Positions 1,035 to 58,700 of a stretch of 64,000 nucleotides of DNA are shown one piece after another. The notes beneath the pieces were generated by a model. That model did not search any database, was not told the DNA's origin, and saw only the letters and a list, made by a program, of their open reading frames with translations. Each line of letters begins with the position of its first letter. Position 1 is the first letter of the stretch. The DNA is from Norana najaformis (Eukaryota > Annelida > Clitellata > Crassiclitellata > Hormogastridae): NCBI GenBank assembly GCA_964023275.1, contig OZ029915.1, forward strand, positions 39,875,238 to 39,939,237, given 5' to 3'. Position numbers and translations under genes: made by a program.

Positions 1035-1042
1035 TCGCGGTC

Positions 1043-6220: not shown

Positions 6221-6289
6221 TCGACTTATGGTCCAGAGTTTTGGATTTCTTATTCAAATTTGCTCTTTTGGTTCTCTGTTTTGTCATTC

Positions 6290-12506: not shown

Positions 12507-12780
12507 CTTGCGTTGTAACTTCCGGTATTTTATGCTTGCACCGTCAGCAAAATTTCTCGATCAACGTTTATGAATAACCTACAGTCTCTGCCTCGACAAA
12601 ACGTTTCTTGATGTTTATCGACTGCTAGATGTAATTTCGGCACACGTGGATTCCAAAAAGTACTAAACGAATGATAAAAATGACTTGATTTCCCCGGTTT
12701 TAACGTGATTGTACCCTCCTCGACTTCAACCACGGGCACCACCAAACTGGCAAGAACGCCTCGGCGCCGAATGCTTGGGT

Positions 12781-29832: not shown

Positions 29833-32800
29833 ATGATGCACCGGGAAATCAGGAGCAGCAGCAGCAGCAGCAGGAACAACAGCTGGAGAGAGAGGGAGAT
29901 GCTCTGTGCGGAGACGTTGGCTGGGGAGACACGTTCGACGACTGATCCAGTCCTGGCGGAAGACGACCGGGTCCTGGAGAATCTTCTTGAACTTGAGGCC
30001 AGCTACCTTCCTTCTGCCTCAGACCCTTCCAACTTCCAGCCAGACATTCGTCCGGAAATGAGAGAGATCCTCAGCGACTGGATGTTCTCGGTAAATTGTC
30101 CACTCTGACTGTTATAGAATAACCGATATATCTGAATAGAATATCCGTAATATCCGAACAGAATATGCGGAATAGTATGCAGCATATTGTGCTACATGTG
30201 TGTAGCAATACATAGCACCTTATAGCACAAGGCTTCAGTAGCAGAAGAGAAGCAAAGCAGTTCCTTAAACTAGTCCCGTTCGTGCAGTAACCATGAGTTT
30301 GAGGTGTTAGCGACTTCATTTTTCTTAGCCTCGGCAGATGAAGGCGGCAGGCAGCTTCTCTCTAGCCGTTTGATCTTTAATTAGGAGTTTGGATCGCCAT
30401 CTTTAGCCGACCACTCAATTTCTTGGACCCCGTCTGTAGTGTGTAGTTACGCTTGACTGAACTGAGACTTGCTTAATGAAGAAATAGCACTGAGACACTG
30501 AGATGGACATTGTAGGAGCTATAGACAAACATTAGCAGAATTTGGCCACACACGTTGTCTGCTTGATTAAGAGAGAACTTGTTTAATTAAGTATACACCA
30601 TTAGAGCGGACACTACACTTTCTTCGAGAGGATCATACACAGCAGTGCATGAATCGAAAATGGACAACTAACTGTGCCGACGTCTCATGAAATAGTATAC
30701 CTTCACATGTACATCATGTATATAATAACTATGCATGCATGCACTTTGTGTGGAAGATGCGTGTGATTTGTGTCGATTCTTGCGGGATTTTTGTCCTTGC
30801 TCTTCCGGACTGAGAAGCAAACCGTGTCGGAGACCTTGATATGTTCCTGGACGAAGAGTCGTCATTGACGGAGCATGTTAGCTTCCTCTGCAGGCTCTGC
30901 TTTTATCCATTTAGACCCAGGGTCATACGACGAAATTTATTATACGGCGCCGCTGAGACCCTCGCTAGTGCTCACTTTCATCCTAACGGGTTTTTGTTGC
31001 ATGGCGTCACGAGAAAACAGAAAATAAAAACACTTAGCGAAACTCTGAATATGAACTTATAGTTTGATAGCTAACACAACAAAATTTGCAAAGAATTCAT
31101 TTTTAGCCATTTTTACCTACTTGCCATCTGTTCTCGTTTCTCACTAAGTAACTTTTCCGACTTTGTGAGGGTTCTCTCGGGCAAAGCCATGACAGAGTGA
31201 TGTATTTTCCAGGCAGATTGGCACAAGTTCCATGTGCGACCATGAAAAAGTTGGAATTCATACTTGTCAGCCCCTTTCTGCTTAGAAACCTAGCCCGAGA
31301 GACTTTCCTCAACTTAGCCTTAGAGAATTTCCCCCAAATTCAATAATCCACAACCCATAGGCAACAAAATTCGGAAATGGCCTGGTCCCCTCGCAATCTC
31401 TGCAAGAGCTCGTCTGTCAGGTTCGTGATAAATGATTTAAAGGCATGCGATTGCGTGCGTCCGGTGATGTCAAATGACACGCGTTAGATTGCAACAGACG
31501 AACTTGATGGTCGACTTTGTCAAAAGCCTCACTGAGCTCTACAACAACCCACGCACAAGACAGATAGGATTTACACAGCGCAGCTGTCTACTGCTGATAA
31601 ATTATTTTTTGCCATTATCATTGCGAATGCAGTCTTCGTTACCCATAGGCATCCAGGAAGACGAGTGATTAATTAGTGGCTTGGAGAGTAGCTAGGACTC
31701 CGAATAAAAGCAATGTTCAGAATGAATCAAGAGGCTTTTTGCCTGTGATTCATTCCTGATGCATGAAATGGCAATTAAAGCGGTGGCTAGCACAAAGCTA
31801 TCGAGGATATTCTAGACAACCCCAAGTGGGTTTTACAGCCAACGTTTTTAAAAGATCAGTTGCACGAAATGATTAAAATACCGACTCGCTCGTTTACTGG
31901 GTCTTTGGGCCAACATTAGGCCTATGGCTGACCACTAGTTGCCACCTGTGGCACATAGCAAGTCCACTTGGGACAAAATAAATTTGTGGGGATACATGGG
32001 GGATGTGAGGCTGCTGTTCACGCAACTAGGCGTGTTATGGCGAATGTGTAGCAGGGATCTATCTTAGTCAATCTGGATTTTTCCAAATCTTTCATCTACC
32101 TATATTGGGACTGCATGCTGTCATCAGTTAACGAAATTCTACCAGTACTGCACCCTTTTGCTACTCAGCCCACTCTGGGGCCCCTAACCTCAATTTTGAC
32201 AATTTCACCGTCCTTTCCCAGGTTGGACCACAACAAGGAGACCCTTTGGGCCCACTGCGTTTCTGCCTCCCTTTGCAACCGGTCCTCCTCAAGCTGCTCT
32301 CCCGTCACATTTGGTTATCTTGACGATCTTACCCTGGGCGGGGAAGCATCGGTTGTCTCCGCCGACGTAGATGTTATCGAACATCGCTATACAGCCCTGG
32401 GACTAGACCTCAACCAAACAAAATGCCTATACTTAAAATTTAGGCGCCTAAGCGTGTAATTAATTGGACCATCTTCTTTATTCCAACGCCAAAATGAATA
32501 AGACGATGATCTGGCCCCTTCTTTGAAGCTTTGGCTCCCCATTGTAGGCAGGCCTATATTTAAGTCTAAGAGTTTCTGGATTTTGAATTACTGTTGTCAA
32601 TCATATTTCGTTTCGCTCTTGTAGAAGAGCAGGACAAGGGCTGCATTCCAGCATTTAAACAACTTCAATTGGATGTCAGTCCCAAAACGCACTTCACGCA
32701 TACAAGTCACCCAGAACTGCCCCGGAAGTTATCCCAAGTTCCCAACAGAGTCTGTGTAAAAAGAAAGTCTGTTCAAGAAGATAGAAGTTCAGCGGTCGAT

Positions 32801-35646
32801 AGACACTAATTCTGTTAAGAGTACGCTTTGCCATGCATGTGAGCCCACAGACCGTTGTGACATTGATTAAAGTCCATGTGATTGATTCTTATAATGGATT
32901 GTCTGATGTTTGCTAGGTTTGCGAAGAAGAAGGTTGTGCAGTGGACGTGTTTCTACTGTCCATGAATTATGTCGATCGATTCCTAAGCAGTTGTCCGAAA
33001 AGGATCAGGCGAAGTCAGCTGCAGTTGCTAGGTGCTGTCTGCCTCTTCATAGCATCGAAGTTCAAAGACACCCGGCATCTCTCGTCTTCCACTCTCTCCT
33101 ACTATACTGACCATTCCGTCAGTTCAGACGAAATTCACGTAAGCTGACTCGAATAATATGCACGAATGACGAACTTAGCTTGCAACACTTGCGCATCTGA
33201 ACTGCAATGAAAAAAGATACAATTACTATTTCTTTAAAATGCATGTATTGGCCTAATTAGTATGTGCGAAAACCTGAACATTTCTATTGCGCCATAATTT
33301 AACCTCTTAACAGGGCTCAGAAATAGACTTACTGAGCAACATGACGATAACCATCCCCAGTCTAAAATTTGGGTCAGGCATACTTCTGTCCTATAAGGAT
33401 CGACTTTGTGTTCATGTATAGGCCTACGTTCCTAGAGTAGAGCTGTACAAAAAGACTAGTCAAAGGTAGCGACTCACAGTTATGTTATGCTAAGTAATGT
33501 TACTTTGTGTTATGTTACGTTATGTTAAGTTACCGGAGGTATCATTTGTTGTAGGAATGGGAGTTGAACGTTCTTCAGGTGTTGAACTGGAACGTGTCCG
33601 CGATTACTGCCATCGATTTCATGGACTTGATTCTCGTTCGCCTTAAGCCTCCGGCCATTTTCGATAAGCAACTGATTAACATCCATCACGCTCATACTCT
33701 GGCTGCCCTCTGCAACATCAGTAAGTATACGACATCATTTAGGTTATCTTATGTAGAATTAGTCACAGAAATGACTAATCAGACACATATTTCATGCCTT
33801 TCGGAAGCTACTGGTAAGGAAACTCGGACAGTGGAGAAATCTCTCTCTCTCACCTTCTATGACGACACACAGACCTTCGTCCCGATCAACCCATAAGGGG
33901 CCCCACTTCGCGCTTCATTCAGTTCTCCGAGATGTGTTGTGTGACAAGCAATATACGAGTCTGTATCAGCAGTGTCGCCTTCTTCCAATCTTCCTGGGTA
34001 ACTCGATTCGAACTCTGAAGTTTCGGTTGTTCTCTCTGCTACGTTTATCTTAATCTGTCTTTCATCTGGTTACGTTTGAGTGTGGAACCCCTTAGTCTTC
34101 ACCTTGGAACACTGACCCGCGGTGTTTTCTCGTTATCTCTTCCCGTCCTCTGAATTTCGTCAAAAAGTAATGCGGGTGTGTCCTTCCCCGAGTTTCGCAC
34201 AATCTCAAATCTTCTCGCTATCGAGAATCAGCCCATTTCGCGACCTCGCAAAGGATGGACCCCTATCCAGAAATCTGATCATTTTGAGGCAGCATCTGAA
34301 CCGGACAGCGAACGCTACGGTTGTGACTTTCCGGGGAGCGCACTGACCTGCTTAACTTGTCTCTTTAATATTTGAAAAGACTCTTTTTCTTAACGGCACC
34401 GAAGGAGTAAGCTTCTGTAACGTTACCCCTTTGTTTCACACAGACCTATTTAACATGTCCTTTTCCGAGCTTCACAACCCTCTCTGATTTGCACCGACTA
34501 GTCTGTCGAAAGGAACCAGTGGGATAAGCTTCCGTAGCTTTACCCCTTGTTCTAGAACAGACCTGTCATTTATTTATTTATCACGAACGTGACTTTTCTC
34601 GAGTTCCGCACAACCTCTTATCTTCCCACTATCGAGATTTAGACCCTATCGCGATCTTATAGCAGGGTGGGCCCGGACCCTGTCGGATCCGCCGAGCCAG
34701 CCTTTAAACCAGACAACGAATGTTGCAGCTGTGATTCAAGATTGCTAGCTCACGGGGCTATGCATGTTCTATCTCAACCGACGTTATTATGTAGATGTAT
34801 CGATTTGTAAATGTGTCTCTTGATAATGACAACATACTTCTCGGGGTGAAGCAGAGGCATGCCTTTATTAAGTTATTTTGTATTGCTGATATCTGCGTTA
34901 TATTACGTCGCTAGTAGTTTCTCCAGTTTTATGTGCTTGTATACCCTCCGCGTTTAGGCAAGAATTGTCTTGTGTTTTCGCCATCGACGGTTGCTGCAGC
35001 GAGCATCGCTGAAATCGCCAGTATGACTGTGCACAACAGAATGGAGAATGACGTCATCAATCGACAGCTCCAAGACATCATCGACTGTGACGAGGTATGA
35101 GAACTTCCAAGCTGCAGGGCAACTGAAGCCTCCTGTTAAATATTGTTATGTCTTGGCTATAAGTCGCTTTCAGCATCGTTCCCCACCACCGCCGTTATAC
35201 TTAGTTTACATACTACATCGTACTCATAAATGGATACATACTGTAAATGCAAACATACATACAAACTTACATACATACATATACTGTATTCATACACACA
35301 TACATTCATACATACATATATTCATACATACATATATGCATACATACATATATTCATGCATACATATATACATTTATGCATATGTACATACATATATATA
35401 TACGTATATACACATACACTTGTACCTCGTGCATTTATACATACGTACATTCATACATACATGCATACATGCATACTTATATATACATATATTCATACAT
35501 ACCGACATGCATCATGCATACGTGCATACATTAATACAGATACATACTTATATACACATATACATGCATACTTATATATATACATACATACACAAACGAG
35601 TTTCTTCCTTTACTGTTATTACACTTGAGAAACTGCATAACACATA

Positions 35647-35681
<35 letters not shown>

Positions 35682-35951
35682 AGTCTCTAAATATTGATGA
35701 GTGTAGGGAAGTGAAAGGCTGTGTCTGTATAAATGCAGGAATGTCTCGTGTCCTGTCGAGAGCGAATTTCTGAGGCACTCTTAAGAAAATGCTCCGTTCT
35801 ACAGAAGCCTTTCGAAAAGGTGGAAGAGGCGACTATGGACGAAATCAAAGATCCAGTTACTCCAACAGATGCATCCGAAATTCGCCTAAAGAACAGTCCA
35901 AGCCCCGCATCAGCAGCAACAGCAGCAGCAGCTGTAGCAAAGCCATCTTGA
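29833..35951 (+). CDS. CCND: D-type cyclin (five exons)
   Basis: Exons 29833-30090, 32917-33138, 33555-33720, 34958-35094 and 35739-35951 join in frame (phases 0,0,1,0; all GT-AG) to 331 residues (human D1 has 295). D cyclins activate CDK4/6 to phosphorylate Rb at G1/S. The N-terminus has MLCAE where Rb-binding LxCxE is expected, with Met for Leu. The first cyclin fold spans exons 1-2 (RPEMREILSDWMFS, then VCEEEGCAVDVFLLSMNYVD and LGAVCLFIASKFKDT, then YYTDHSVSSDEIH). The second fold is in exons 3-4 (NWNVSAITAIDFMD, FSPSTVAAASIAEIA). Exon 5 ends with DPVTPTDASEIRL, matching the TPTD phosphodegron around Thr286 of cyclin D1, then an Ala-rich tail. The start is the first of two tandem ATGs. Exons 1-4 are about 2.8, 0.4 and 1.2 kb apart. 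Introns hold a retroelement fragment, a degenerate tandem repeat and microsatellites. Confidence 0.95.
31980..32560 (+). mobile_element. Degenerate copy of the RLE-type retroelement in cyclin D intron 1
   Basis: The segment encodes, in broken frames, GPQQGDPLGPLRFCLPLQP and GYLDDLTLGGEASVV followed by LGLDLNQTKC. These are motifs B and C of the same reverse transcriptase as the element at 40617-43056. It starts about where that element encodes the GGGEAAVH segment and fades after the NQTKC motif. Frameshifts make it non-functional. Confidence 0.85.
34165..34760. repeat. Degenerate tandem repeat in cyclin D intron 3
   Basis: A motif like GTCCTTCCCCGAGTTTCGCA recurs near 34177, 34456 and 34588. 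TAAGCTTCTGTAACGTTACC near 34411 recurs near 34529. Longer blocks (CTATCGAGAATCAGCCC to GACCCC; GGACAGCGAACGCTACGG) also appear twice with many substitutions. It is an old, irregular tandem duplication or a satellite-like unit. Confidence 0.6.
35230..35682. repeat. (ACAT)n-rich and (AT)n tract in cyclin D intron 4
   Basis: Imperfect ACATACAT/ATACATGC repeats fill about 400 bp, ending with an (AT)n run at 35659-35681 about 55 bp before the exon 5 acceptor. Long reading frames here are artefacts of the repeat. Confidence 0.95.
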
Positions 35952-36054
35952 TGCCAAAGTGCAATGAAGTAGGCCTACATCTATAGCTGGATTGATTCCA
36001 TGGCTTAAATATCAGTGTATTCGCGTCATCATCACCCGCCACGTTGGCCTATGG

Positions 36055-36117
36055 CATAAGCTGGTTCCCCCGACTTAACTTTCTTTGAGCGCTGTAGAAA
36101 TCTCGAGTTTTACGATA
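36055..36117 (+). mobile_element. Short LINE 3' end, GATTAC-tailed family
   Basis: ATAAGCTGGTTCCCCCGAC to GCGCTGTAGAAATCTCGAG, about 100 bp after the cyclin D stop. It may lie in the 3' UTR. Confidence 0.75.
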
Positions 36118-36295
36118 GGCTATTGCTTCCACTGCCTGCTCTATTGGTGTGCCTTTGGTCCTATACCTGTGTCATAATCCCATTTAATGTGGGGCCTGGG
36201 CTGTCCGTGGCTGCGAAACTAACATACTAAACGTGCTTAATTTATATAGGATGAGTGCAGCTCCACTGGTATGCCTAGACACTGCCTATGCGGCC

Positions 36296-36385
36296 AATAG
36301 ACTCTTATAACAGCGCTTTTGAGAGGTTCTTAAAATGCGCTATATAAAAGATTAGATACATACATACATACACAACAGCTTGACA
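36296..36385 (+). mobile_element. LINE/SINE 3' tail with (ACAT)n
   Basis: CAGCGCTTTTGAGAGGTTC, then GCGCTATATAAAAG, then ACATACATACATACA. The same GCGCCTTTGAGAGGTT-type hairpin end is found in minus orientation at 37805-37870, 45355-45425 and at the end of the LINE at 52130-52660. Confidence 0.65.
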
Positions 36386-36486
36386 GATGTTAGGCAGATA
36401 CATTTTATTTAAGCTCTACAGAATCTACATGCAGTGCTTATGCAACTGTATGCCCATATGTTCCATGTTGGGATTTACCAACCATG

Positions 36487-36490
<4 letters not shown>

Positions 36491-36566
<76 letters not shown>
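36491..36566. repeat. (AT)n microsatellite
   Basis: About 75 bp of uninterrupted AT repeats. Confidence 0.97.
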
Positions 36567-36567
<1 letters not shown>

Positions 36568-36867
36568 CCTACAGGAATCATATTGGAATATTGCAGACTG
36601 TTATTTATTATATACAGGCTTATAAGCGACTGTCGACTAGTACCTTATGCATTATTATAACGGGGATTCCTTATAGGCCTATATGCCGGCTTATTCGCTC
36701 TCTACCTGCATGTAAAATTATGCTTGCAATTTCATTGCCTAAATTTTCATTTAGGTTAATTTAGGTTAATTTTTAATTCAAACCTAACGGTGCATTTATT
36801 TTCTCTAGGCTTGTCATGTAAAAATACATTTGTAAATAAGTTTGCATTTATGAAATGTTTCTGCGAA

Positions 36868-37095
36868 ATAATAATAGTAGTAGTATTAGTATTAGTAGTA
36901 GCATTGGTAGTAGTAGTAGTATTAGTAGTAGTAGTGGTAGTGGTGGTAGTAGTAGTGGTAGTGGTAGTGGAAGTATTAGTAATAGTAGTAGTAGTAGTGG
37001 TAGTAGTAGTAGTAGTAGTGGTAGTAGTAGTAGTAAGACGATTTGCAGAGCGCCTTAGTACAGCCGAGGCCGAAAAAGGGCGCTATACATGAGCT
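36868..37095. repeat. (AGT)n-rich tract ending on a LINE 3' tail
   Basis: Interrupted AGT/GGT repeats at 36868-37037 lead directly into ACGATTTGCAGAGCGCCTTA and CCGAGGCCGAAAAAGGGCGC. That sequence is the minus-strand 3' end of the LINE family at 19711-19970. The microsatellite stands where the element's tail should be. Confidence 0.8.
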
Positions 37096-37429
37096 ACGTT
37101 TATTTAAGGTAGGCCTGTATACAATTATGTAGCATAGAGAAATATTGATCCGTTCAGACTTTGACAGAAATCTCGCATCTGATTCTTTAGGCTACTAATC
37201 TAAGTTCTCTCACAGTCGTGAATGTCGTCTTGGATGTCGGAATGAAATAGATAGATCACCCTGTTATCGGTCTACACCGCGGTATAGGCCTACTTCTTCA
37301 CCCTCATTCTAAATATCAAGTGCCGGGTCCTCCCACTTTCTATTATGTCACTATACTGAACCTTGCGCAACAGGTTCAAAGTACAGTCTACATAACGGAA
37401 TAAGGTTCAAAGATATTTTGTCGGTGACT

Positions 37430-37590
37430 TGCGATGCCTAATGTAAATGCAAATATCTGAAATTTCTCAGTGCCACACAAGCCGAGTCAAAGAGAACAGC
37501 CACGCTACATCAAAGTCCACAACAACCACAAGGTTTGTTTTGGTGAGTTTCTGCGCCAGGTCAGAATCCGGGGGGGGGGGGGGGGGTTAG
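37430..37590 (-). mobile_element. Fragment matching the old LINE at 7170-7800, with a G17 run
   Basis: Aligns by eye with 7310-7465 (AATGTAAATGCAAAT, AAATTTCTC, CCACACAAGCCGAGTCA, CAGGTCAGAATCCGGG). Seventeen consecutive G residues stand at 37570-37586, where the other copy has only GGG. Confidence 0.65.
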
Positions 37591-37804
37591 GCCTAAGCCA
37601 GGGAAAAAGTATGGTGCTACAGGGAAAGTCGTTAACGATGGTGGTTATGGGGTGGTGGAGGAGGTGAAGCATGCAGGGTAATAAGTCTTTGTGAAGTTCG
37701 GTTTTCAGTCGTGAGTGAAAATCTGCAGGAGAAAGGGCAAGAGGAGAAGTACTCGTATTGAAAGCTTCAGGCTCAGCTTTAAGTGAAGTTTGGTGGGTCT
37801 GATG

Positions 37805-37975
37805 ATTGTATGAGCGTATCTGGGAATTTATGTAGTGCCTTTTAGGAACCTCTCAAAGGCGCTGAAGCATGAATTTCTGATCAGTTCCAAAGTGCGTCTT
37901 ATAGCTGTGATATTTAGCTATATGTATATATATATAAAAGAAATTCATGCTTCAGCACATTTGAGAGGCTCTATA
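37805..37975. repeat. LINE/SINE tail with a small inverted repeat
   Basis: AGTGCCTTTTAGGAACCTC, then AAAGGCGCTGAAGCATGAAT, at 37828-37876 is partly repeated in inverse at 37938-37972 (ATTCATGCTTCAGCACATTT). A TATATA-rich spacer separates them. Confidence 0.65.
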
Positions 37976-37993
37976 TATATGTATATATGTATA

Positions 37994-38172
<179 letters not shown>

Positions 38173-38980
38173 CAGTGGTATACAGTTTCTCATGGCGCAC
38201 AAGGAACTGCTGGATTAATGCAATTATAAAATTAGCAAGGTCATGGCCACAGAGATCAAAGCGAGCGCCGTGATATGGGTGGTATCTGTTTATGGATGTT
38301 AGTGAAAAAGAGGATTCAGGATGTGATATAGTTTATAAAATAATTAAATAGATGAAGCCCATAAGCTTAGATGTTTGCATGCTTTACGTGGTTACTTGTT
38401 TTTAATATGTTTTAATGACTTTTAATTATAAACGATTATTAAGCGTGTTCTTAATTGTTTGCATTTAATGTCATTTCCTTGGATGCATAAAATTGCATGG
38501 CAAGAGAAAAGATTTGTGCTCTGTGATAAGCCAACGCTCTTGTGTATGCTTGCTTTTGAAATGATTTTCCAGGTAAATATTCTGCTGACCGCTACAAAAC
38601 TGTGATAGGCCAATAGCAATGGAATTTTTTGAACTCCTGCTAGTGAAAGCTTCTGTAGCAAGTGTGACTGATGGATTTTGTTGAAGCATATTACAAAGTT
38701 GTTCAATGCATTTAAAGAAGTGATCGATTTAATCTGTGGCGCTGGCGTACATAATAGCATAAGATACATTGAACCTCATTAGTGAATGGTGTCAAGATTG
38801 GACTGATTCGTGTTTTTCTTAAAGATAAAGCTGTGATATTTAGCAGAGAAATCATAGTCGCTGTGCAAATATTGTATGCAGTGTAAATGGCGAAGTATTT
38901 TAATTCGGACTTACGATCAATAAATTTGATTATGCCGCTTAACAACTGTTATCTGTTATTTTGAATGCTCTGAGGCCTAT

Positions 38981-38985
<5 letters not shown>

Positions 38986-39042
<57 letters not shown>

Positions 39043-39210
39043 GGAGAGAGGGGGAGAGAGGGGGAGAGAGAGGGAGAGATAGAGAGAGAAACAGGGAGAG
39101 AAAAAGAGAGAAAGGGAGAAAGAGAGAGAGAGAGAGAGAGGGACCAAAAAGAGAGAGGGAGAAAGAGAAAGGGAGAGAAAAAGAGAGAAAGGGAGAAAGA
39201 GAGAGGGATG
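38986..39210. repeat. (GA)n and GA-rich polypurine tract
   Basis: A pure (GA)n run of about 55 bp is followed by about 170 bp of purine-only sequence (GGGAGAGAG, AAAGGGAGAAAG). A polypurine run this long can form H-DNA. The Arg/Glu-rich reading frame is an artefact. Confidence 0.95.
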
Positions 39211-40487
39211 CATGCAACATGGATGTTCAGGCGTTTATAAGTTTATTTCAAGTTTGGTCTTTCAGTGGATTACGCGTATTTAACTCTCTGTACATATATA
39301 GTATTAGTGAATATTAAATTAATATACAGAATGTTTATAAAGGAAGTAATTTGACTAACATGATGTATACAGTCGTGTAATCCCATCTATCGAGTTATTA
39401 ATAAATACGTTACTTTGTAATTACTTCAATGTGTGCTTTTTAAAATAATATATTGTTGCATTTTGTCTGTTATCTCTAGGCTCAGCTGTTAGGTATTTGC
39501 TTGTATATGTTCTTAGTTCTTAATTTAATCTATCTCAGAACTTTTATAGCGCCACCCTATTCCGTCAGTGGCTGACCAATGCTTATCAACAACAGTCCGT
39601 CCTATTCCAAAAGGGTCAGTGCTTATAGCTATGAGGGACCGCTAGCTGTCTCGATGTCTAGTCCTACTTTCTACAGCATAGGCCTATCTCCGCGTGGTTA
39701 AATTCGCCTGAACATTACCTGTTGGCTATTCACAGCTGAACTCTAAGAAAGCCCTAAGCAGTGTTCGTATGGGCCTAGTACTTACTCCATGTATACTAGG
39801 CAGCTCTTTTGCAATCCATAAAACCGTCCGTTCAGAGCTATAAATAACCACAAGCGGAACAGAGGGAGCAAAGCAGCAAATGTTATAGCATCAAAGGGCG
39901 CTACTATCCAGTGTTGATCAGTAACAAAGTAACAGTAACGCTTAGTGTAGGCCTACTTAAGTAAACGTTCTAGTACTTTTACTTGTAAAGAAGTATTAAA
40001 TGGAAATATATTTACTTGTAACAAAGTAACACTTCACCAGTTTTGCAGTAGGCCTACTCTTGTACTCTTACTTCGTTATAAATGACGCCTGGGGCTATAT
40101 ATTACTAGTTACTTTAAATTTAGGCGCTAGACAGAGGCGTATAGTCGTATGGGCCTAATATATAGGTAATATATAGGCCTATTAGTAATTTTGCCGCTGT
40201 TGGTTCAAACGAGTCATTGCCCGCACATGTGGCAAGGAGTGGTGACAAGCAAAGCCGAAAATCGTTAAAGCAGAGAGGCACTGACTATTTATCGGACTAA
40301 GTGCAGATGGTTTGGAATCGTCCGAAAAGTAGCGGGGGAGGGAGTTGTTAGAGCCAAGTGCTCCTTGTCCACACTGAGTAGACCCCGAACCAGATAAATT
40401 TCCAATAGGCTTATACGTTCAGCAAAATGGGAACCCCGAGAGAGTGTGTCAAGCTCCTCGGAGTGTAAACTTGTAAAACGCTCTGTC
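39211..40487. other. Gene-free stretch rich in TAGGCCTA
   Basis: No gene recognised. The palindrome TAGGCCTA or its core occurs unusually often (near 39678, 39948, 40050 and 40173, with more on either side). Confidence 0.5.
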
Positions 40488-40488
40488 T

Positions 40489-40553
<65 letters not shown>

Positions 40554-40566
40554 AATCGTAGCTCTC

Positions 40567-40616
<50 letters not shown>
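40488..40616. repeat. (CAT)n and (AAT)n compound microsatellite, left flank of the retroelement
   Basis: (ATC)n at 40488-40552, a short spacer, then (AAT/ATA)n at about 40567-40616. Translation gives the runs of His and Asn at the start of the open frame, which are not real protein. The same two motifs occur on the right flank in mirrored order. Confidence 0.96.
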
Positions 40617-40618
<2 letters not shown>

Positions 40619-43054
40619 GCAAGCTATAGCAGCAGCTGTTTCCTCGAAGCTCGAAGATGGTAATATAAGGGCAGCTGTCAGAATCCTGAGTTCAGAGGAT
40701 AAGCCTGCGCCGATTAATAAGGATACCTTCGAAGAGCTTTCGATCAAACACCCCAAACACCCAGCGGGGCGCCCCATCATACCTCCCACCACAAAGGTAA
40801 CCCCATTCCAAACAACTTCGGACGAGGTACATAGTAACATCCTCTCGTTCCCCGCAGGTTCGGCGGGGGGACCTGATGGCCTGCGTCCCCAGCACGTCAA
40901 AGACTTAATGAATTGTAAAGAAATAGGTCCTGAGTTGTGTTCGAGTCTAGCAGCATTAGTTAACCTTTTGTTAGCAGGCTTCTGTCCAGCGGACATTCAA
41001 CCTATACTTTTTGGTGGCACCCTGTTCGCGTTAAGTAAAAAATCGGGTGGCTTGCGTCCAATTGTAATTGGCTACTATTGGCGTAGGCTGGCCTCCAAGT
41101 GCGCAAACAAGTTTGCCCTGTCTCGGACTTCAGCATTCTTTGGTAGTAGACAGGTAGGAGTGGGAACCCCCGGAGGTGGGGAGGCTGCAGTGCACTCGGT
41201 TAGGCGCTTTTTAGAAGACATGCCAGATGGCTCGATACTGGTTAAACTTGACTTTGCTAACGCATTTAATAGCTTGTACAGAGATGCTGAACTCATTAGC
41301 AGACATCCTTCCGGAGTTACTACCGTTTGTCAATCTAGCCTACGGTTCTGCCACGGAACTAAAATTCAGCCATTTCTCCATTTCTTCTGAAGTAGGTCCA
41401 CAGCAGGGGGACCCTTTGGGCCCACTCTTGTTTTGTCTCCCATTACAACAGATCTTGGAACAGTTATCTTCGGACCTGGTGATAGGATACTTGGACGACT
41501 TATCCCTGGGGGGCGATGCACCCACAGTGGCAGCTGACGTAAGTTTCATAGAACAAGCGTGTGATTCTTTAGGCCTCCGGCTTAATCATACAAAATGCGA
41601 AATTATTTCACATTCACCGTTTGCGAATAGCCATGCTTCTCTGAGTAGCTTCACTCAAACCAAACCGGAGAGCGCTGTCCTGTTAGGAGCGCCACTATGT
41701 ACTGCAGAGGCTCTTTCGGCCTGCTTAGAGTCTCGTTGTGCTGAACTCTCGCTAGCAATTTCCAGATTGATGACCATAGCTAAACATGATGCCTTAGTGC
41801 TCCTCAGGACCACATTTAGTTCACCCAAGCTATTGCACACTTTGAGATGTTGCCCGTGTGTGGGTCACCCGTTACTGGAGAGATATGATCTGCTGCTTCG
41901 TGAAGGTTTTGTCTCTATTTTTAATTTGGCCCTCACAGACCATCAGTGGCTTCAGGCCTCCCTCCCCATTAAAGCTGGAGGTTTAGGCCTACGCTGGGTG
42001 TCTTCGCTTGCGCTACCCGCCTTCTTGGCATCCGCTGCAGGCACCCAAACGTTGCAAACTGCCATTCTTCACAAAGGCCAAATATCACCAGATTTTCATC
42101 TCAACACTATGGTGGAACATTGGTGTGCACTCACCATGACTCCACAACCTGGTACTCATCTCTGGCAGAGACAATCCCAGTGGGATAAACCTCTATACGA
42201 GATATCGAAAACTACACTTATTACCAATAATAACGACGCGTACCACCAGGCACGTCTAAAGGCGGTGTCATCGCCTCATGCTGGGGACTGGCTATTTGCC
42301 CTCCCCATTAACTCAATCGGTCTTCGCCTGGATGACGAAGCCGTACGTATAGCCCTAGGTCTCCGTCTCGGAGCTATCCTATGTCAACCACATAATTGCA
42401 CATGTGGAGCTCTGGTGACTGCTGAGGGGTCGCATGGTCTCTCTTGCCGTTTGGGACCCGGCAGAATGGCACGTCACGCTTGTCTCAATGACCTTATTCA
42501 CAGAAGTCTGACGCGAGCGGGCTTCCCATCGGTGAAAGAACCTACGGGTCTTTCTAGAACAGACGGCAAGAGACCGGATGGCCTTACCCTGATTCCTTGG
42601 CGTTCGGGGCGCAGCCTCCTATGGGATGTCACCGTGATTGACACGCTTGCACATTCTTACTTACAGGCAACCTCTGTTACAGCAGGAGGCGCAGCTGAAC
42701 TGGCGGCCGATAGAAAAACTTTGAAATATGATCATCTCACTAATGCATACCACTTTGTCCCTCTGGCCTTTGAGACTTTAGGCCCTATCAATGGTTTGGG
42801 TATGACCTTTCTCACAGACTTGGGGCGTATATTGTCCCTCATATCCGGAGATGGTAGAGAAATAGATTACCTTTTTCAACGCTTATCTATAACATTACAG
42901 CGTTTCAATGCAGTCGCCTTCCACGGTACATTTGTGGTGCCGAATCCAGACGAGGATTAGCCGTTCCAGAGTCCCTCTCTCTCTTTTTCTCCGGAAATTT
43001 TTGAACAACCAAGGGATTATACTTACCTTGGTAAAAAAAAATTAAAAAAAAAAA

Positions 43055-43056
<2 letters not shown>
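40617..43056 (+). mobile_element. RLE-type non-LTR retrotransposon, 5'-truncated, one frameshift
   Basis: An element encoding reverse transcriptase and a restriction-enzyme-like endonuclease, which would copy its RNA at a nicked target in the nucleus. Coding starts mid-protein right after (AAT)n (AAVSSKLEDGNIRAAVR), with FPAGSAGGPDGLRPQHV and LRPIVIG. Motif A is LVKLDFANAFN. About 41284 the frame shifts by +1, then GPQQGDPLGPLLFCL (motif B) and GYLDDLSLGG (motif C, YLDD) follow. Near the C-terminus a C-x-C-x9-H-x3-C knuckle (42394-42450) and KRPDG...LLWDVTVID (42569-42641) match the zinc knuckle and PD-D nuclease of R2/R4/CRE-type elements. The stop is at 42958-42960. A 3' UTR of about 90 bp ends in an A-rich run merging with (AAT)n. 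The rest of the frame is uninterrupted, so the insertion looks recent. Clade is not certain; R4/Dong is the best guess because Dong inserts into TAA repeats. A relative is at 31980-32560. Confidence 0.85.
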
Positions 43057-43105
<49 letters not shown>

Positions 43106-43137
43106 AATAATCATCATCATCATCATCATCATCATCA
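43030..43137. repeat. A-rich tail, (AAT)n and (CAT)n, right flank of the retroelement
   Basis: A-rich run at 43033-43056, (AAT)n to about 43108, then (CAT)n to 43137. Order is the mirror of the left flank. Confidence 0.95.
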
Positions 43138-43894
43138 ACATCATCAGTCCCTAATGCCAGCCGTTTGGCGGCGATGGGTTCGAGTAAATGATCTCCACTC
43201 TTTTCGGTCATTTGTCATAATTAAGTGCTGTTCTATGTTTAGTCCATGTTTTGTTATGTCATTTTTATGCTATCTATCCAACGAAGTCGTGATCTTCATT
43301 GGCTTATCTTTCCTTCGCTTCTTTTGCATGTAATGCATTGTGTGGGATTCTGTCAGTTGGCATTCTTTCCACGTTGCTGAACGACTTTATCAAATAAGGT
43401 TGTCTGTAGGCCTATATCCAAGAATTGTCATATTAAATCATTTATGATGTTTGTAGTCGTGAGATTCCTGCAATTTTCCGGAAAAGTGGAATTGGGGCCC
43501 AAGATGTTCATGCATTGATTTCACCTTTATCGGCGTCTCATTCTTAAGTTCACTAATTTTATAAGACTTCCTTTGCTTTCGTAGTAGAGTTCAAATACGA
43601 AGTAGGCCTATGTATTCAGTCGAAAGATGGCACGCCACATCTGAATTTAATTGCGACATCAAATATGGCATCAGTATGTCGATATGTCATCCGCGAATCG
43701 TAGTTGACTCCTTTGCTTTCCTAAAAGATTTCTCGTTAACTAGCGTTCTACATTAAATCAATTAAATTTGTTAATAATAATCTCCAGACGTTGGGTGCAT
43801 TACCGGCGTACACATGTTGAAAAGTAGTATAATGTAAGTTGGACTCGTGTCTTCGTACGTCTAATGCCCTCTGGATTTACTAGAATGTCATTAC

Positions 43895-44115
43895 CTCCAT
43901 GTGCAACACGTTGGGGGTCGCCATATTTGTTTCCAGTTAAAGCAATCACAGTAGATGCGCCATAAACTCATTTCACTTACATACAGATTTCTCTGGTGAA
44001 GCCAGTAATGATTGTCATCTCGGTGTGCAACAGCTTGTCGTTCTCCATATTTGTTCCAAGTTAAAATACTGACAGATGCGCTTTAAACTTATTTCACTGG
44101 CATGCAGGTTACTCT
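43895..44115. repeat. Diverged tandem duplication upstream of mRPL55
   Basis: Two units about 124 bp apart share GTGCAACA, CATATTTGTT, AGTTAAA, AGATGCGC, AAACTNATTTCACT and CATACAG/CATGCAG. It covers the area where the mRPL55 promoter or first exon would be. Confidence 0.65.
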
Positions 44116-44387
44116 GACAGTCTTTTTAACCAGGCCACCATGTTTATATAACTAACACTGCTGTAAAATTCTTGGGAGATGTGCTGATAGTTTCGTCCAA
44201 ACTACAAAACCAGCTTATTCAGAACGTGTATAGAGTTCAGCAGTATGAAAGGGTGTAAATTCCAAAAGACAAAAAACTACTTCAGTAACTGGCATTCATC
44301 CATGTTTGGCACATCCTTTGTTCAGTTTTAAAGCTAGGTATTGGTAGTTGCAAACAAATGTCAAGGGATTTCTTTGTTTTTCCCCAG

Positions 44388-46014
44388 AATTTTAAAGCAA
44401 CAGCAGCTGTTGGTTAATATACCAGCAATGTCGTTGTTTTGTACTGGTGCAATGTCAGTTCGACATAATTCTAACCGAGCAGCTGTGACAAGGATCAATC
44501 GTAGGGCCTACCCACAGATGTACCCTACATTGTTGGTTTTTGCTGATGGATCTACAATTAATATACGATACAAAGAACCACGGTCTATCATTAAGGTACG
44601 TTATGTCGTTGGCTTGTGTTGTAGTTTTGAATGATTTATACTGTGATTGGGATTCCCCAGTGTTGTATTTTTGAATGATTTATACTGTGATGGAATTCCC
44701 CAGTGTTGTATTTTTGAATGATTTATACTGTGATAGAATTCCCCAGTCTTCCTGCTTCTGCTTTTTATTTTCACTTGCTTGTCCACCGTGGCCTGTTATC
44801 TGTTCTCTCTGACCTTGAAGATTTTGACTTGACCTGGCTATTGGATTGACATGGACTGCAATTTCAATCAAGTAATTGTTGCCATGTGTTTTGATAGTGG
44901 CATTACAGAAGTCCAGATTAGATTAGTTCTCAGCTGCTATTGTTTCTCTTCTGTATGGTAGTTTTTATATAGTATAGCCAGGGGTATGTCCCCCTGTGGC
45001 CATAGCTTACAGCTAAGTTGTGAGAATGGCTTCTATATATTTAGGCCATTTGATTCAGACATATCTATACAGACGTTTTGGAATGAACACAAAATTCATG
45101 AAGTAATGCCTCAGAATTAAAGGAATGAGTAGGGCAAAGGGGTAGAATTGAAGAAGGCGAAGAAGAGATTGAATTTGGTATTCCTGATTCCTGTAAACTG
45201 TTCAAATGGCTTTGCTCTGCCTTAAGCTCTGGGTGCAAGTCCTGCATTTCTTGCTATCAGCTTTGTTCATCTGGCTTTCTGTGGTGTCCTGAGTCAAGTT
45301 CACAGTATTGCAACTGGCCTACCTGCATTGATGGATGATTGAGACTGTTACTGCAGCGTGTATGTATGTATGTATCCAAGAACTTATATAGTGCATTTTT
45401 TGAACCTCACAAAGGCGCAGTGAGTACACTGCCGCAGATTATGGTGGTGGTTGGGGCTTGGACGTCATACAGTCCTGTGCTTTTAATTGGCAATAGTTTT
45501 CCCACAACAGCCAGTGACTTTCCTCATTTGGCCTTTGCTTCTTCATTGAAAAGGTATTGGAGACTTTGACCTTGACCGAGCTTCTACTCTGGTCTGTTGC
45601 TCTTGGTTCTCTCAATTGTCTTAGGTTATTTCCCATTCATTTACCTTTAGTGCCATCTTCTGGCAAGGGACATAATACACTCTTTTCATTTGTTCTTGAA
45701 AACTGTTCTGTTTTGCCTGGCTGGAAGTGTTTTGAGATGTGCTTTTACAATGTGTAAATAAAAAAAAATTAAAAATTGACCGCAATAATGGTATGTTAAT
45801 TTTGTACAATAGTCAAGTCCAGAAAATTTAGCTTCTAATGTATACTTTGAATTATGTTCATCTGTAGCTACCAATAGACCTGTCAACGTTAACGGAGAAA
45901 GAGCGAGCTGAAAGACTTGCAAAGCGAAAGCCAAAGAGAAAAGTTGTTAAGGAAGAAGAAATTGAAGATTCCTTTGATGTTAATCAGTATTCTCATCTTT
46001 GGAAGAAGAAGTGA
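44388..46014 (+). CDS. MRPL55: Mitochondrial ribosomal protein L55 (5' exon not found)
   Basis: Two exons are supported: 44388-44595 (acceptor after TTTCTTTGTTTTTCCCCAG, donor GTACGT) and 45868-46014. They join at phase 0. The product reads NRAAVTRINRRAYPQMYPTL, then ADGSTINIRYKEPR, then LPIDLSTLTEKERAERLAKR, ending SHLWKKK. This follows human MRPL55 block by block ([51 protein letters not shown]). It is a component of the mitochondrial large ribosomal subunit, made in the cytosol and imported. If translation starts at the ATG at 44428 the protein is 104 residues with a short presequence. If an upstream exon exists it must end in phase 2. A polyadenylation signal AATAAA is at 46159-46164. Confidence 0.9.
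44625..44755. repeat. Three-copy tandem repeat (about 43 bp) in mRPL55 intron
   Basis: TTTTGAATGATTTATACTGT, then GATNGNATTCCCCAGTGTTG, three times in a row with a few differences, starting 30 bp inside the intron. Confidence 0.9.
45355..45425 (-). mobile_element. LINE/SINE 3' tail with (ATGT)n
   Basis: GTATGTATGTATGTAT, then ATATAGTGCATTTTTTGAAC, CTCACAAAGGCGC. It is the minus-strand version of the end at 36296-36385, in the mRPL55 intron. Confidence 0.6.
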
Positions 46015-46501
46015 TAAAAGAAAATCATCCTAGTTTTCTAACTTTTCTTATACAATATAACTGTATGAAACTGTGTAATTAACACATACTTGGGCCATGT
46101 GTGGTCTCATTTGCTATTAGGTCCCTTACATTTAGCATATATCGTGCAAATCATTTAAAATAAAATTTAGGGGACAAGTGTGAACGATTTTGTGTTGAAG
46201 TTTTTTCTTAATTCTAGTTTTTACATTTTTAATATAGGTATTTACTCTGATGCAGCAATCTTTGAGTAGAACACCTGTAATAGATGACACAAATTCAAAC
46301 AAACTATGCAAAAACTTCATAAATTCATTTAATTCTATGTGATAATTTAATAAAAGATAAACCTGTAAACAAAATTGGATGCTAGGTCTACTTTAAAACT
46401 CAGTTAAAAGTTTAAACGTGGCCCAGATAGCATTGCCATGCTTCGAAAGTTGAAATGCGAGTTTTAACTGGCTAAAATTATGGTAAACAACAGCCAGTGT
46501 G
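46015..46501. other. mRPL55 3' UTR and flank
   Basis: AATAAA motifs at 46159-46164 and 46349-46354 could end the mRPL55 transcript. Nothing else recognised. Confidence 0.5.
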
Positions 46502-46630
46502 CTTGTTCTAGTTCACTTTCATTTAGTGCTCAACTGTTGTCTCAATAAAACTACTTGTTCTAGTTCACATTCATTTAGTGCTCAACTGTTGTCTCAATAA
46601 AACTTGTTCTAGTTCACATTTTTTCATTTA
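46502..46630. repeat. Tandem repeat carrying AATAAA motifs
   Basis: About 2.4 copies of a unit of about 50 bp: CTTGTTCTAGTTCACATTC, ATTTAGTGCTCAACTGTTG, TCTCAATAAAAC. Each full unit contains an AATAAA, so the array repeats a potential polyadenylation signal. Confidence 0.9.
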
Positions 46631-46735
46631 GCACTTACCATATGCACTTGCATATAAGTTGAGAAATTTTCGACAATTTTGAAAGTCCAGATTGGAGGGG
46701 TCACCTTATATGAGGGTCGAGCCATGATCGCAAGA
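46628..46735. mobile_element. Possible DNA transposon terminus
   Basis: TTACCATATGCACTTGCATA, TAAGTTGAGAAATTTTCG, then TTATATGAGGGTCGAGCC. The pattern resembles the ends of Tigger/pogo-like elements (a tataagtCGAcc-type TIR and its near complement). No transposase is visible. Confidence 0.35.
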
Positions 46736-48586
46736 TACATCCGAGGATACATCCATGAGATGACCGATACACCCAGGGGATAGTTATTTCAGCATTAAAC
46801 TTCAGACTTTCAACAGCCAAACAACACAACTATGAATGTGTATGTAGAGAGGTGTTTTTATATTTAGCAGTACACCGGCACTTGGTCTGCACCACCATTA
46901 ATAACTATGCCTGGTACTAACTAGCATGCTGGTATCTATAGTTTTTTAAGAAAAGAAGAGAGTTCAGAGTCTTCAGCACTAATAATTATTAAGATCTGTA
47001 ATCTTAGTTCACAGCCAGACCTGCCAAAGAATGCAATGAACAAGAAACTACTTATTTACTCAATCAAGTAGAAGACGTTTTGTGAATTAAAGTTAACAAT
47101 GGACACTGTTCTGTAATTTGGTGAAGTGTCGTACAACAATGAAGAAACAATCTCACAGTGCTGTTATCTGTGATTCTCTGTCAGAATTCTGCACTCGACT
47201 GAACACTCTGATGTCACAAAATTTGCAGTTCTGTGCTGTGCAAAGTTACCGTTAACTGCCGGCCAATTATCATGTTAGAAAACTGAACTGCTATCAAATG
47301 CACTAGAAGACAGATTCAGGAAAACATGCAAAGCATGCAACTGAAGCATTAGCCCTACATGTAGTCTTGATGCAGTTCCTAATAATAATAATTAGATATG
47401 AAAACTTGCAAGTTCTTGGCATAGTGCATGCTACTTTCTGCACAAATTATCCAATGAAAATTATACAATAACTTTAGAACAAAAAGAAAAGTGATTGGCT
47501 TTGACAAACACTGATGAAACACCAGGAAAACATGACGAGATGCGTAGTTTGGTTGTTAGAAAAACAAGTTTTGTTTCCCAGAACCTCTACATTTCAGTTA
47601 TGAACTGGCAGCTAGATCAAATAAAGTTGGCTCTGACTATTTGTGTAGAAAATGTCTCTCACAATCCAATTCCACCATTTGCCCATTCCAGTTGCTAAAA
47701 AGCAGAACAACTTTTCAGAATATAAATGTTAAAACAAAACAAAATATCAACTTTATGCAAGCTGGGATGCATCTCAGATTGATCCATATACTATTCGCAA
47801 GAAATTAGTGGATATGTTTCAAGAATTTATACTGTATTTTTATTGCGTGCATAATGATGAAGGTTGTTGCCAGGTAGGAAGTTCTCAAGCTGAAACACTG
47901 AATGCGAAAAGTGACAGAATGAAAGTGATACTGGGTATTTGACACTGATAACACACACTAAAGTTGAGCAATGTTCAGCCTGGTTATTATTATTATGGGT
48001 GACCATACATGGTATACAAGGCCATCTCAGCCAAATTCCACCCTGCATCCTTGCTGGGTCAGTACAGGTACTAGTGCAAATCAGGTTCAAAAAGGCTTCT
48101 TGGTGTCTTATCCAGTTTGCGGTATCGGTACCACAGGATAATGAAGAGAGATTAAAAGGGGTCACAATTACCAAATGGAGATATAACCACTGTATTTGGG
48201 ATTCTAATCTCAATGCATCACGCGAAAGTAACAATGTGTTGCCAAGCCATGTAACCTAAGTCGTATTTGTTTCAGCTAACTGTAATGTGAAAACCACAAA
48301 ACTGCACTTTTGGGCATAACTTTTATGATGAAACATTACAAATGCAGTTACTTTATATTTTTGGAAGCAAACACTATGGTCTTCAGTTTCACAGGTGATG
48401 TGATACCACTTCTGAAGAACTGGACACAGCTGGATTTGTTACTGGAGGAAAATGTTAAATTTTGAATACTTATTCTCTATAAGGCACCATGTAATTATGT
48501 CCAATCATTCAGCAGTTACAAAATGTCACAGCAACGTTTTAAAACAGTATCCAGTTATGTCTAAATATGTATTTGTATACTCTGAT
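46736..48586. other. Intergenic, between mRPL55 and EMC4
   Basis: No gene recognised on either strand. A short last exon of EMC4 (minus) could be here, see EMC4. Confidence 0.5.
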
Positions 48587-55788: not shown

Positions 55789-58700
55789 TTAAAGCCAGTT
55801 ATACATTGGCATAGTTGGCCACTGATAGTCATTGACAGGGAACTGCTGTTGCTGCTGTGACAGAAGAGAAAGGGAAACATGCATCGCTGGCATGGTACCA
55901 GGAACATGAGATGAAACCGGATGGAGCGCTGAAGCACCACCGTGACTGAAATGCTCATCACGTCTCATGGCTGTGTGGTCATCAGACATGAAATTGTAGT
56001 CCATAAAAACCGAGCGTTGGTCTATGTTACCGGATGTTTCGCGAGGGATACCCTGGCGCTCAGCAGAGTAGCGGGACGTCATGTACGGGTCATGGCATGG
56101 CATTGAGAATGGGTGGCTTGCATTTGCTGCCCGGTCTGAGGCGGGAAGACGAGAAAAGCGAACTGCATCCAGCATGGTTTGTTTGGCATCATATGAGTTT
56201 GTAAGCAGCGGAACATTGCCAAACCATCGGCCAAATCTTGTAGTCTCATTGGTATATGGATTTGCAGCTGGTGGTTTGGTGTGTTGAGTTGGCATGGCTA
56301 CAGGACGGAAAGGCACGCTGGTATGGTCGCTGAAGGAAAGCTGGGTGGAGACAGGCCCTGCTGTCAAATCAGATGCCTTTGCTGCCATCTTATTGTTGGC
56401 ATGGGTGAAGGTGTTAGCTCGAGCAAACGAAAAAGACAGAGGAGCTGAAGGAAACTCCTCAGCATGGAAAGGATATCCATTGGGACCTGTGCGATATGTA
56501 TTTGAACCAGGATGATAGAAACCAAGGGAAGGATGAAGACCAGATGACGGTTGGCTTATCCTAGATGAAGGATAGCCTGGATATGTGAGAGTGGATGCGT
56601 TAGACAATGAAACCGGAGGCATTGGAGTGAACTGGTCAGAGGTACATCGAAGGACTCTGTTGGATTCTGAAGCCGTATCTACTTCGATATCCTGAAGAGC
56701 GTCATACTGAGGCTCTTCGTGATTGGCAATTGTACAGCATTCATTGCCAGATGAATTGCCATAGTCTGCTACATTGTATCCTGATGGTTGTGCATAGCTA
56801 TATCCAGTGAAACGCCGATCATGTGACTCGGATGGCAGAGATGTAAAACAGGACTGGCTGTACAGCTTTTCACCCTTTGTTTCATTACTGTTAAGCAGTT
56901 GAGGTGCATGGCTCCCTGGAAAATCAGTATTAGGAGGCGATGAAGGTGCATAAAATGCATCATTGACAACAGGTGTCAGTGTCACTGCATCTGTCAGATG
57001 ACAGTTCTTTCTTGCATCTACTGAATCAGATGAATTGTCTGGATGATGATCACCAGATGATGATTGCTCCTCACTCCATTTCAAAACTGGCAAAGCTGTG
57101 CCACCACCTTCCGCGTTTTTAGGAAGCTTTTTAGCCAACTTATTCCGCAAATGTTTCGACTTGCATTTGTGTTGCTTAGCACAACTTTGACCAATATCTT
57201 CGGTGCTATTGTGATGACGAGTCATATGTGTCTCGTAGCTCTTTACTCCCGCAAATCCCTTGCAGCAAATGTCACATCGAAAGCCCCAGTTGGCTACAAT
57301 GCTGTGATCACGTTCACTGTGTCGTTTGAGTCGTTCAGGCCGAGGAAAGGCCCGATTACAGATGTTACAGTGGTATGCATATATTTCCTTCCTGCTTTCC
57401 AGTTTGTGTACTAAAGAAAGATGTTGGCGCAACTCACTTGGACGTGGAAAAGAAATAGAACAATCAAAGCATCGGTAACGCAGTTCCTTTTCATGCATCC
57501 TTTCATGATAGCGCAGTCCTTCACGATAGCGATATTTTCGGCCACAAACAGAACAAGAGTACGGCTTTATGCTGCTGTGACACTTGAAATGGTCTTGCAG
57601 TTTATCCTTCCGCTTGAAAGCCTTGCCGCAACTTGGTTCCTTGCACACAAATGGCTTTGTTGTTGTATGAGCCGAGATATGGTGTCGCTGAAGGTGTTCC
57701 TTCTTGTTGAACGCCTTGCTGCAAATTTCACAAACATGCTGGCGACTAGGCAGTGGGGGAATACTGCGATGATTACAAAGTCCTGCTTGTTTGTTGCATG
57801 TAGAACCACACTGACCACATGTCCTGTCAGCCAGTTTCTGCACATCTTCAGACCTGAAGTCATTTTTTTCAAGCTTCTCAAGAGGTTTAGTGTTTGATGA
57901 ACTTTGCTCTTCACAAGTCTGTATACTCTGTGATTGCTTTTTTATACTTGAGTTTCTTGATCGTGTATTTAAAATAGAGTTTGACACAGGATGCGTCTGC
58001 CTATGAGCTGATAATCGATGTGAAAACAAAGCCTGCTTTTCGTCAAAATGCTCATTGCAAACTTTGCATATGAATGCAAATTGTAAGTGAACTTTAGAAT
58101 GTGCCTGGTATTCGTCAGCAGTTTCAAAAACTAACTTACATGATGAAATAACACAGCGAAAGAGGCAAATCAATTTGTGGTCATTGGTCCTATGCTGATG
58201 GAGTCTCTGAAGATTTGTAAACTCCTTCTGACAGTATGGGCATATGTTGCGTTCAGTCAAATTCAAATTCCTATTTCTTGAAGTCAGTACTGCCTCTATA
58301 CATGAGCCCTGTATGGACGAGGATTCGTCATTACATAAACAGCTGTTATTTCCAGTTTGCTCTGCATCGGTAACCAACGTTTCATTACTTAAATGCAGTG
58401 ACTCTTTAACACCGCCAGACGAGGTTTCAGCAAGGACCTGAATAGGAGGAATGGTTAATGCAGGGTCAAATAAATTAGCTGGAACAGGACCATCAGTTGG
58501 ATGTGGCAACCACACACGGTGGCATTCGATGTGTTCTCGAGCCGAGTCCTTATTTACAAATCTAAGACAGCAGATAAAGCAGACAAATGATCCAACAGAT
58601 GGTCTGCTTGTCTCAGTACATTCTCTTGCATTATCATCTGGTAAATTATGGCTTCTACTTTCTTCTGCAAGAACTGCAGTATCTGTCAAGAGTTGTGAGA

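Follow-up and report, generated by a model that had tools for sequence, protein, structure and literature searches.

How did a reverse-transcriptase gene come to lie between two mirrored pairs of microsatellites, and were these repeats chosen by the element or made by it? The question is raised by a 64,000-nucleotide stretch of the Norana najaformis genome (assembly GCA_964023275.1, contig OZ029915.1; hereafter the window, G000:C3:39875238-39939237 in the searched assembly of 608,420,607 bases and 17 contigs), in which such an element is bounded on both sides by (AAT)n and, further out, by (CAT)n. The element is very probably a copy, dead and truncated at its 5' end, of a recently active non-long terminal repeat (non-LTR) retrotransposon, or long interspersed nuclear element (LINE), which carries a restriction-like endonuclease (RLE) and inserts specifically into (TAA)n microsatellites. 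Its parts, with an older relative upstream, are given below in window positions, with RT for reverse transcriptase and ORF for open reading frame; papers are cited by accession.

40489..40557, no strand: outer (CAT)n or (ATC/CAT)23 microsatellite on the 5' side, by direct reading and Tandem Repeats Finder; an incidental part of the compound target repeat.
40567..40618, no strand: (AAT)n target tract on the 5' side, (ATA/AAT)17, by direct reading, Tandem Repeats Finder and the junction table.
40618..43054, plus strand: 5'-truncated LINE copy, lacking about 1 kb of 5' sequence; 99.26% identity to the L021 copy.
40620..41285, plus strand: ORF piece A, with the end of the N-terminal region and the first part of the RT; frame broken near 41285.
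41238..41276, plus strand: RT motif A, LVKLDFANAFNSL, from the sequence and the RVT_1 match.
41287..42957, plus strand: ORF piece B, with the remaining RT, linker, knuckle and endonuclease; stop codon at 42958-42960.
41401..41433, plus strand: RT motif B, QQGDPLGPLLF, from the sequence.
41488..41499, plus strand: RT catalytic motif C, YLDD, from the sequence.
42382..42447, plus strand: zinc knuckle C-X4-C-X1-C-X9-H-X3-C, from the sequence, its spacing compared with PMC5678591 and PMC12857005.
42472..42957, plus strand: RLE, RH...KE...KRPD (42568-42579)...WD (42622-42627)...K, from the sequence and the R2Tg profile match.
42958..43054, plus strand: 3' untranslated region with an A-rich tract, from the sequence and the junction table.
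43008..43032, plus strand: 3'-terminal 7-bp hairpin, ACCAAGG-loop-CCTTGGT, a probable recognition structure for reverse transcription, from pairing across seven hairpins.
43055..43111, no strand: (AAT)n target tract on the 3' side, (AAT)19, by direct reading, Tandem Repeats Finder and the junction table.
43110..43146, no strand: outer (CAT)n or (ATC/CAT)12 microsatellite on the 3' side, by direct reading and Tandem Repeats Finder.
31986..32426, plus strand: decayed, frameshifted internal fragment of an older relative, from the RT region; 53-58% identity in short stretches.

A sequence-only reading of the window had described the mirrored order CAT-AAT-element-AAT-CAT, which is real by direct reading and Tandem Repeats Finder. 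It had also described a coding sequence that starts immediately after (AAT)n; this start is seen, but it is due to the 5' truncation, as full-length copies carry about 1 kb more. The RT motifs, Cys-Cys-His-Cys knuckle and PD...D nuclease motif that were assigned to a single ORF are all present, but the ORF itself is split, since a gap of 5 bp near 41285 relative to the L021 copy leaves the reading frame in two pieces. The window copy is both 5'-truncated and dead.

A search of the element's own genome, with 40 of 829 candidates scored and 79 matches listed, gave 41 main places among the listed matches when counted by hand with the window included, so that at least 40 further close copies exist, with 93-99% identity outside the window. 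They are scattered on many contigs and share constant 3' ends, while their 5' ends vary, beginning at many different query points as a 5'-truncation series. Twenty copies (L021-L040) were read together with flanks of 5 kb on the 5' side and 1 kb on the 3' side, and the other 20 at both ends. Seven of the 41 start at one of positions 1-7 of the full-length element, which is about 3.45 kb long and starts with CTCTGGAATGGCCCTCGGTCAAGATGGCGG in the L021 copy, and a single uninterrupted frame of 992 amino acids was found in two of the seven full-length copies read (L021 and L028, the latter with an altered RT motif B). Synonymous and nonsynonymous divergence between these two copies is dS 0.036 and dN 0.0098, and a comparison of the first two families of related elements (introduced below) gave pS 0.80, where synonymous change is saturated, and pN 0.32; these values indicate that the protein has been under constraint. 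The family of TAA-targeting RLE LINEs is real and recently active.

The junctions of these copies carry the evidence for target choice. Three or more TAA-type units within 40 nt upstream were found at 36 of the 41 five-prime junctions, and TAA units within 60 nt after the end followed all 25 readable three-prime ends, the other 16 stretches lacking the end and being left unscored. The five exceptions on the 5' side are L036, L026 (AT-rich), L051 (other trinucleotides), L061 and L062, the last two of which (an internal break or an element that continues) are probably not true ends. The background is low: of the 40-mers tested, 47 of 8724 from the remainder of the window and 48 of 7160 from distal flanks, some of which hold related elements, were of this type (0.5-0.7%). 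Because TAA touches 5' ends that are truncated at many points, the element's own tail cannot be the sole source of the repeat, which must derive from the target. For the 17 truncated junctions that were clean, a mean of 1.82 bases was shared with the continuation of the TAA repeat against 0.35 at random breakpoints, a value reached in none of 5000 simulations, and this microhomology fits the joining of incomplete cDNA to a TAA array; 17 further truncated junctions were left out of this test because something other than TAA units occurred in the 9 preceding bases. TAA target specificity is secure. The tabulated flanks, with (AAT)n at most 5' and 3' junctions, together with the truncation series and the R2-like RT and RLE matches described below, bear out the earlier proposal of a microsatellite-targeting RLE retrotransposon inserted with 5' truncation, and neither of the outcomes named there as contrary to it was seen, as most flanks are TAA repeats and Pfam gives RT alone, with no APE domain. 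The symmetry of (CAT)n has no such general meaning. CAT/GAT-type arrays lie near only seven of 41 five-prime and five of 41 three-prime flanks, and the CAT-AAT mirror was rejected as a signature of the element; with so few copies near such arrays, the CAT on either side of the window copy belongs to a compound repeat of that site, which was probably present before the insertion.

The protein of 992 amino acids contains, in order, an N-terminal finger-like motif (CX2C...HGP...C), a LINE-type RT, a linker, a CCHC knuckle and the RLE motifs, and the succession of RT, knuckle and PD-(D/E)XK-type motifs stands in one ORF in L021 and L028. RVT_1 is the sole Pfam family, with neither a Myb nor an APE domain among the matches, although the filters drop most weak ones. 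The best sequence matches of the RT in the PDB are R2 elements (R2Tg, 3e-36), and the endonuclease region of R2Tg was matched by profile with a domain i-E-value of 0.0034; the RLE positions RH, KE, RP, D and K are kept as far as the distant relatives L042 and L043. Structure models of the C-terminus were poor as to the RLE fold, and the fold comparison list was filled by the RT domain, so that nothing follows from it for the N-terminus or the RLE. In an RT tree of 12 rows, unrooted, with long branches and with R2 and L1 as references, the lineage of the element (8 rows) was split from R2 (3 rows, 87/77) and L1 by a 100/100 branch. The knuckle, C-X1-C-X9-H-X3-C with an extra upstream Cys, departs from the CX2-3CX7-8HX4C spacing of the R2 group (PMC5678591). 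CX1-3CX7-8HX3-4C is given for SLACS/CRE (PMC12857005), and as the spacing varies between clades, the mismatch does not exclude the element from the RLE group.

Close to the 3' end, a hairpin is shared between families. Its core, GGGATTATACTTACCTTGG, has 266 exact copies in the genome and none in the reversed control. Across seven hairpins, three from other families and four from copies of the first family, 48 of 49 cells are paired and two pairs are changed on both sides, and sliding the partner by one to three columns lowers the pairing to 25-63%. When the seven-row alignment was shuffled, the covariation score was reached in 7 of 500 cases and the number of pairs changed on both sides in 193 of 500, seven rows being few. 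The pairing suggests that the hairpin is probably an RNA structure used by the RT. A relation to U1 snRNA was considered, as the loop of the window hairpin, ATACTTACCT, resembles the U1 5' end, and was dropped because the loops of other families differ.

The 5' end carries a signature of its own. A genome search for (AAT)4 followed, after a gap of 5-35, by AAGATGGCGG gave 57 matches against 9 for the reversed pattern, and 38 distinct places remained after overlapping registers had been merged by hand. The wider signature TGGR(11-18 nt)AAGATGGCGG stands in 32 of these 38 places, in 17 variants; AAGATGGCGG and TAA are present there by selection, whereas the stretch between them (TGGRATKG in most variants) was not selected. 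The first and third families, which were found without the signature pattern, both carry the signature. By its consensus, AAGATGGCGG is a YY1-type site, and it lies about 17-28 nt from the start of the element. Human L1, an APE LINE with two ORFs, has a site of this kind near its start as well; it lacks TAA specificity, unlike the present element, and the likeness would be convergence. In L1HS the YY1 site is located at 13-21 bp (PMC4908685). We hypothesize that the signature marks an internal promoter that would start transcription at the first base of the element, and an L1-like promoter is plausible. An Rfam search (E up to 10) of the 5' end of L021 (3880-4420, 541 nt) gave no HDV-like family, although a diverged ribozyme could escape it, and a crude search for partners of the first nucleotides gave 7/7 pairing in the first family (G-U allowed, 86 nt in) and at best 6/7 in the third. 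For window positions 35000-48000, Rfam gave 32 matches at E up to 5, mostly located in simple repeats and none at the gathering score.

Copies of different families also lie in one another's tails. At the L021 locus, three related elements of different families stand in the same orientation in one TAA-rich stretch (approximately 14-3150, 3987-7433 and 7590-8503); the upstream one belongs to a second family (57% identity over 835 amino acids) and the downstream one is the start of a third (39-59% identity in pieces). Between the first two lies a further piece of 3' end, very short, which finishes with a CCCTGAGGGATCATAAGTACCTTGGG hairpin. A few search strings showed that at least four of the 41 copies have the tail of another element within 150 nt upstream and that at least three are followed by another element at a distance of up to about 200 nt.

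More distant relatives were sought in other collections. None was found in viral contigs, and a first scan of genome contigs confirmed none, but a DNA pattern for QGDPLGPLLF gave nine loci in genome contigs, seven of which encode distant relatives of the ORF and two of which (L041 and L044) match only the motif itself; since the relatives were picked by motif, the motif letters shared in the alignment are partly there by selection. The seven contigs (L042, L043 and L045-L049, with L042 and L043 near-copies of each other) are filed in bacterial metagenome bins (Verrucomicrobia, Spartobacteria, Curvibacter, Granulicella, Methylococcales and Hyphomicrobiaceae) and are probably eukaryotic contaminants. 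By eye, L042 has C2H2-like fingers upstream of the RT, and the HGP motif is absent from the available stretches of all seven. Among the unnamed proteins of public animal and plant databases, relatives of this protein are presumably frequent. As for the decayed fragment in the window, no TAA run was seen at its edges.

Two alternatives would dispense with target choice or with retrotransposition. The element might insert at random and make the TAA itself through a (TAA)n RNA tail or later repeat growth, as TAA stands after every readable 3' end and microsatellite families are reportedly generated by RTE elements in Lepidoptera. An RNA tail, however, could not have placed TAA immediately before 5' ends that are truncated at many different positions, and the TAA microhomology at truncated junctions and the copies sitting in TAA tails of other elements also speak against this explanation, which we regard as very improbable. 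That segmental duplication or unequal exchange between microsatellites, and not retrotransposition, spread the copies is about as improbable. In its favour, recombination can occur at microsatellites, contig 14 holds two adjacent copies, two signature matches are about 300 bases apart on contig 17, and within flanks of 150 nt a non-simple stretch is shared with the flank of another copy on four of 41 five-prime and eight of 41 three-prime sides. Most outer flanks are nevertheless unrelated, the copies occupy many contigs, constant 3' ends with variable 5' ends are the usual mark of target-primed reverse transcription, and what the four 5' flanks share is the tail of another element. On the 3' side, the eight shared flanks resemble further dispersed repeats with TAA at their ends. 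Shared continuations were observed in the 3' flanks of L070, L071, L075 and L086 and of L031, L033 and L037, one type with ATATAGCGCC and another with AATGCGCCGGTGT; these are apparently dispersed repeats adjoining TAA runs and may be a source of target arrays.

The assignment to a clade is a separate matter, for insertion into microsatellites and into TAA is a working principle that is already known. Dong, of the R4 clade, inserts into TAA (PMC7998251, PMC3774820) and (TAA)n is its location in most insects, molluscs and cnidarians (PMC7998251). With Dong of Bombyx mori and R4 the element shares this target and a layout of one ORF with the RT followed by a C-terminal RLE (PMC7998251, PMC3774820), and it could be an ordinary member of that clade, with differences inside the clade's range. 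We consider this unlikely: PMC7998251 describes R4/Dong proteins without N-terminal zinc-finger motifs and with a diverged Myb-like domain, whose detection needed HHpred on a family alignment, whereas here a finger-like motif is present and Pfam, with its weak hits mostly filtered, gives no Myb; the 5' end of Dong contains a self-cleaving ribozyme (PMC3774820), whereas Rfam gave no HDV-like family for the 541 nt of L021; and YLDD stands in place of the AF/YADD described for all non-LTR elements (PMC3774820). Each of these three differences is weak alone, and with the YY1-type signature they would set the element apart from Dong/R4. Membership of the Hero or CRE clades, some members of which use simple or telomeric repeats as targets, seems doubtful as well. 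HERO elements have an RLE, occur in deuterostomes and include microsatellite-specific families (PMC4640811, PMC9004415), and microsatellites are also targets of Togen (PMC4640811), the comparison being by description. For CRE (SLACS, CRE1/2, MoTeR and FoTeR) the likeness lies in the REL motif order C-C-H-C, RH, E, R/KPD, D/E, the published formula being CX1-3CX7-8HX3-4CX9-10RHD/N, X19-33 E, X9-21 R/KPD, X12-14 D/E (PMC12857005). By eye, four steps agree (CX1C, HX3C, X19 E and X10 RPD) and four are just missed (CX9H against CX7-8H, X8 against X9-10 before RH, RHA against RHD/N and X15 against X12-14); the TAA array is a further difference, and Pfam did not return the coiled-coil family that is named for FoTeR proteins. 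R2 (R2Bm, R2Tg and R2Pm) resembles the element in its RT match, the RLE match of R2Tg and its domain order, but its target is the 28S rRNA gene, whereas the element is flanked by TAA microsatellites, has a separate RT (100/100) and differs in knuckle spacing. A further R2-like RLE clade, described not long ago, is that of the BLAG elements in the German cockroach; they are reported as not site-specific (PMC7650587), unlike the present element, the comparison being by description. A separate lineage is plausible, and an RT apart from R2 with YLDD is compatible with an unclassified clade but no proof of one, the RT references of the tree being R2 and L1. Tentatively, and with less than even confidence, the elements could form a deep, unnamed RLE-LINE lineage that is marked by QQGDPLGPLLF and YLDD in the RT, reaches well beyond animals, belongs to none of R2, R4, NeSL, CRE and Hero, has converged with Dong on TAA and with L1 on a YY1-type switch, and offers its copies as landing pads for mixed colonies.

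A TAA-targeting RLE retrotransposon would work as follows. Full-length copies would be transcribed from their own 5' end, with the start set by the signature ending in AAGATGGCGG; an own start signal is proposed because a microsatellite offers no promoter. One protein of 992 amino acids, as read from the sequence, would then be made, with its zinc-finger-like motif, RT, knuckle and RLE. The conserved pairing suggests that the RT recognises the 3' hairpin and the A-rich end of the RNA. The RLE would nick the chosen TAA array, and the TTA strand would prime cDNA on the A/UAA-rich RNA end, so that the element appears to use target-primed reverse transcription. The 5' end of the cDNA would be joined to the opposite side of the array, in many cases through 2-4 nt of TAA microhomology and in many cases before synthesis has finished, which would produce the 5'-truncated copies whose junctions are described above. 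As an insertion keeps TAA on both sides, the target would be renewed, and families could stack in one array, as at several loci.

Elsewhere in the window, frames resembling exons of a cyclin D-type gene were seen by eye at 32920-33730, with the decayed fragment just upstream, as were Jun-like (1031-1984, plus strand) and Maf-like (11679-12560, minus strand) bZIP frames and one frame of 1484 amino acids with many C2H2-like zinc fingers (55792-60243, minus strand). The palindrome TAGGCCTA is frequent throughout the window (16 places, e.g., 1506, 39679, 40174 and 43603).

What is new here is the YY1-type 5' signature in 17 variants and the stacking of elements in one another's TAA tails; no paper was found for the RT motif strings in the literature searched, which, without Repbase and most subscription journals, is no proof that the elements are undescribed. 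Target-specific RLE LINEs, among which R2 is the main model, are reportedly under study as a means of inserting DNA at sites of choice. A (TAA)n-targeting enzyme of a separate RT lineage, with ORFs present in a living genome, would reveal the way in which a further protein locates its target, here through a single finger-like motif. The 5' signature predicts how an element residing in silent repeats gets transcribed, unlike R2, which lies in transcribed rRNA genes; if this is true, a YY1-type switch just inside the 5' end would allow transcription of the element to begin at position +1 even though the surrounding repeat has no promoter. The stacking, in turn, suggests a gathering rule for these families, by which every insertion keeps the target alive.
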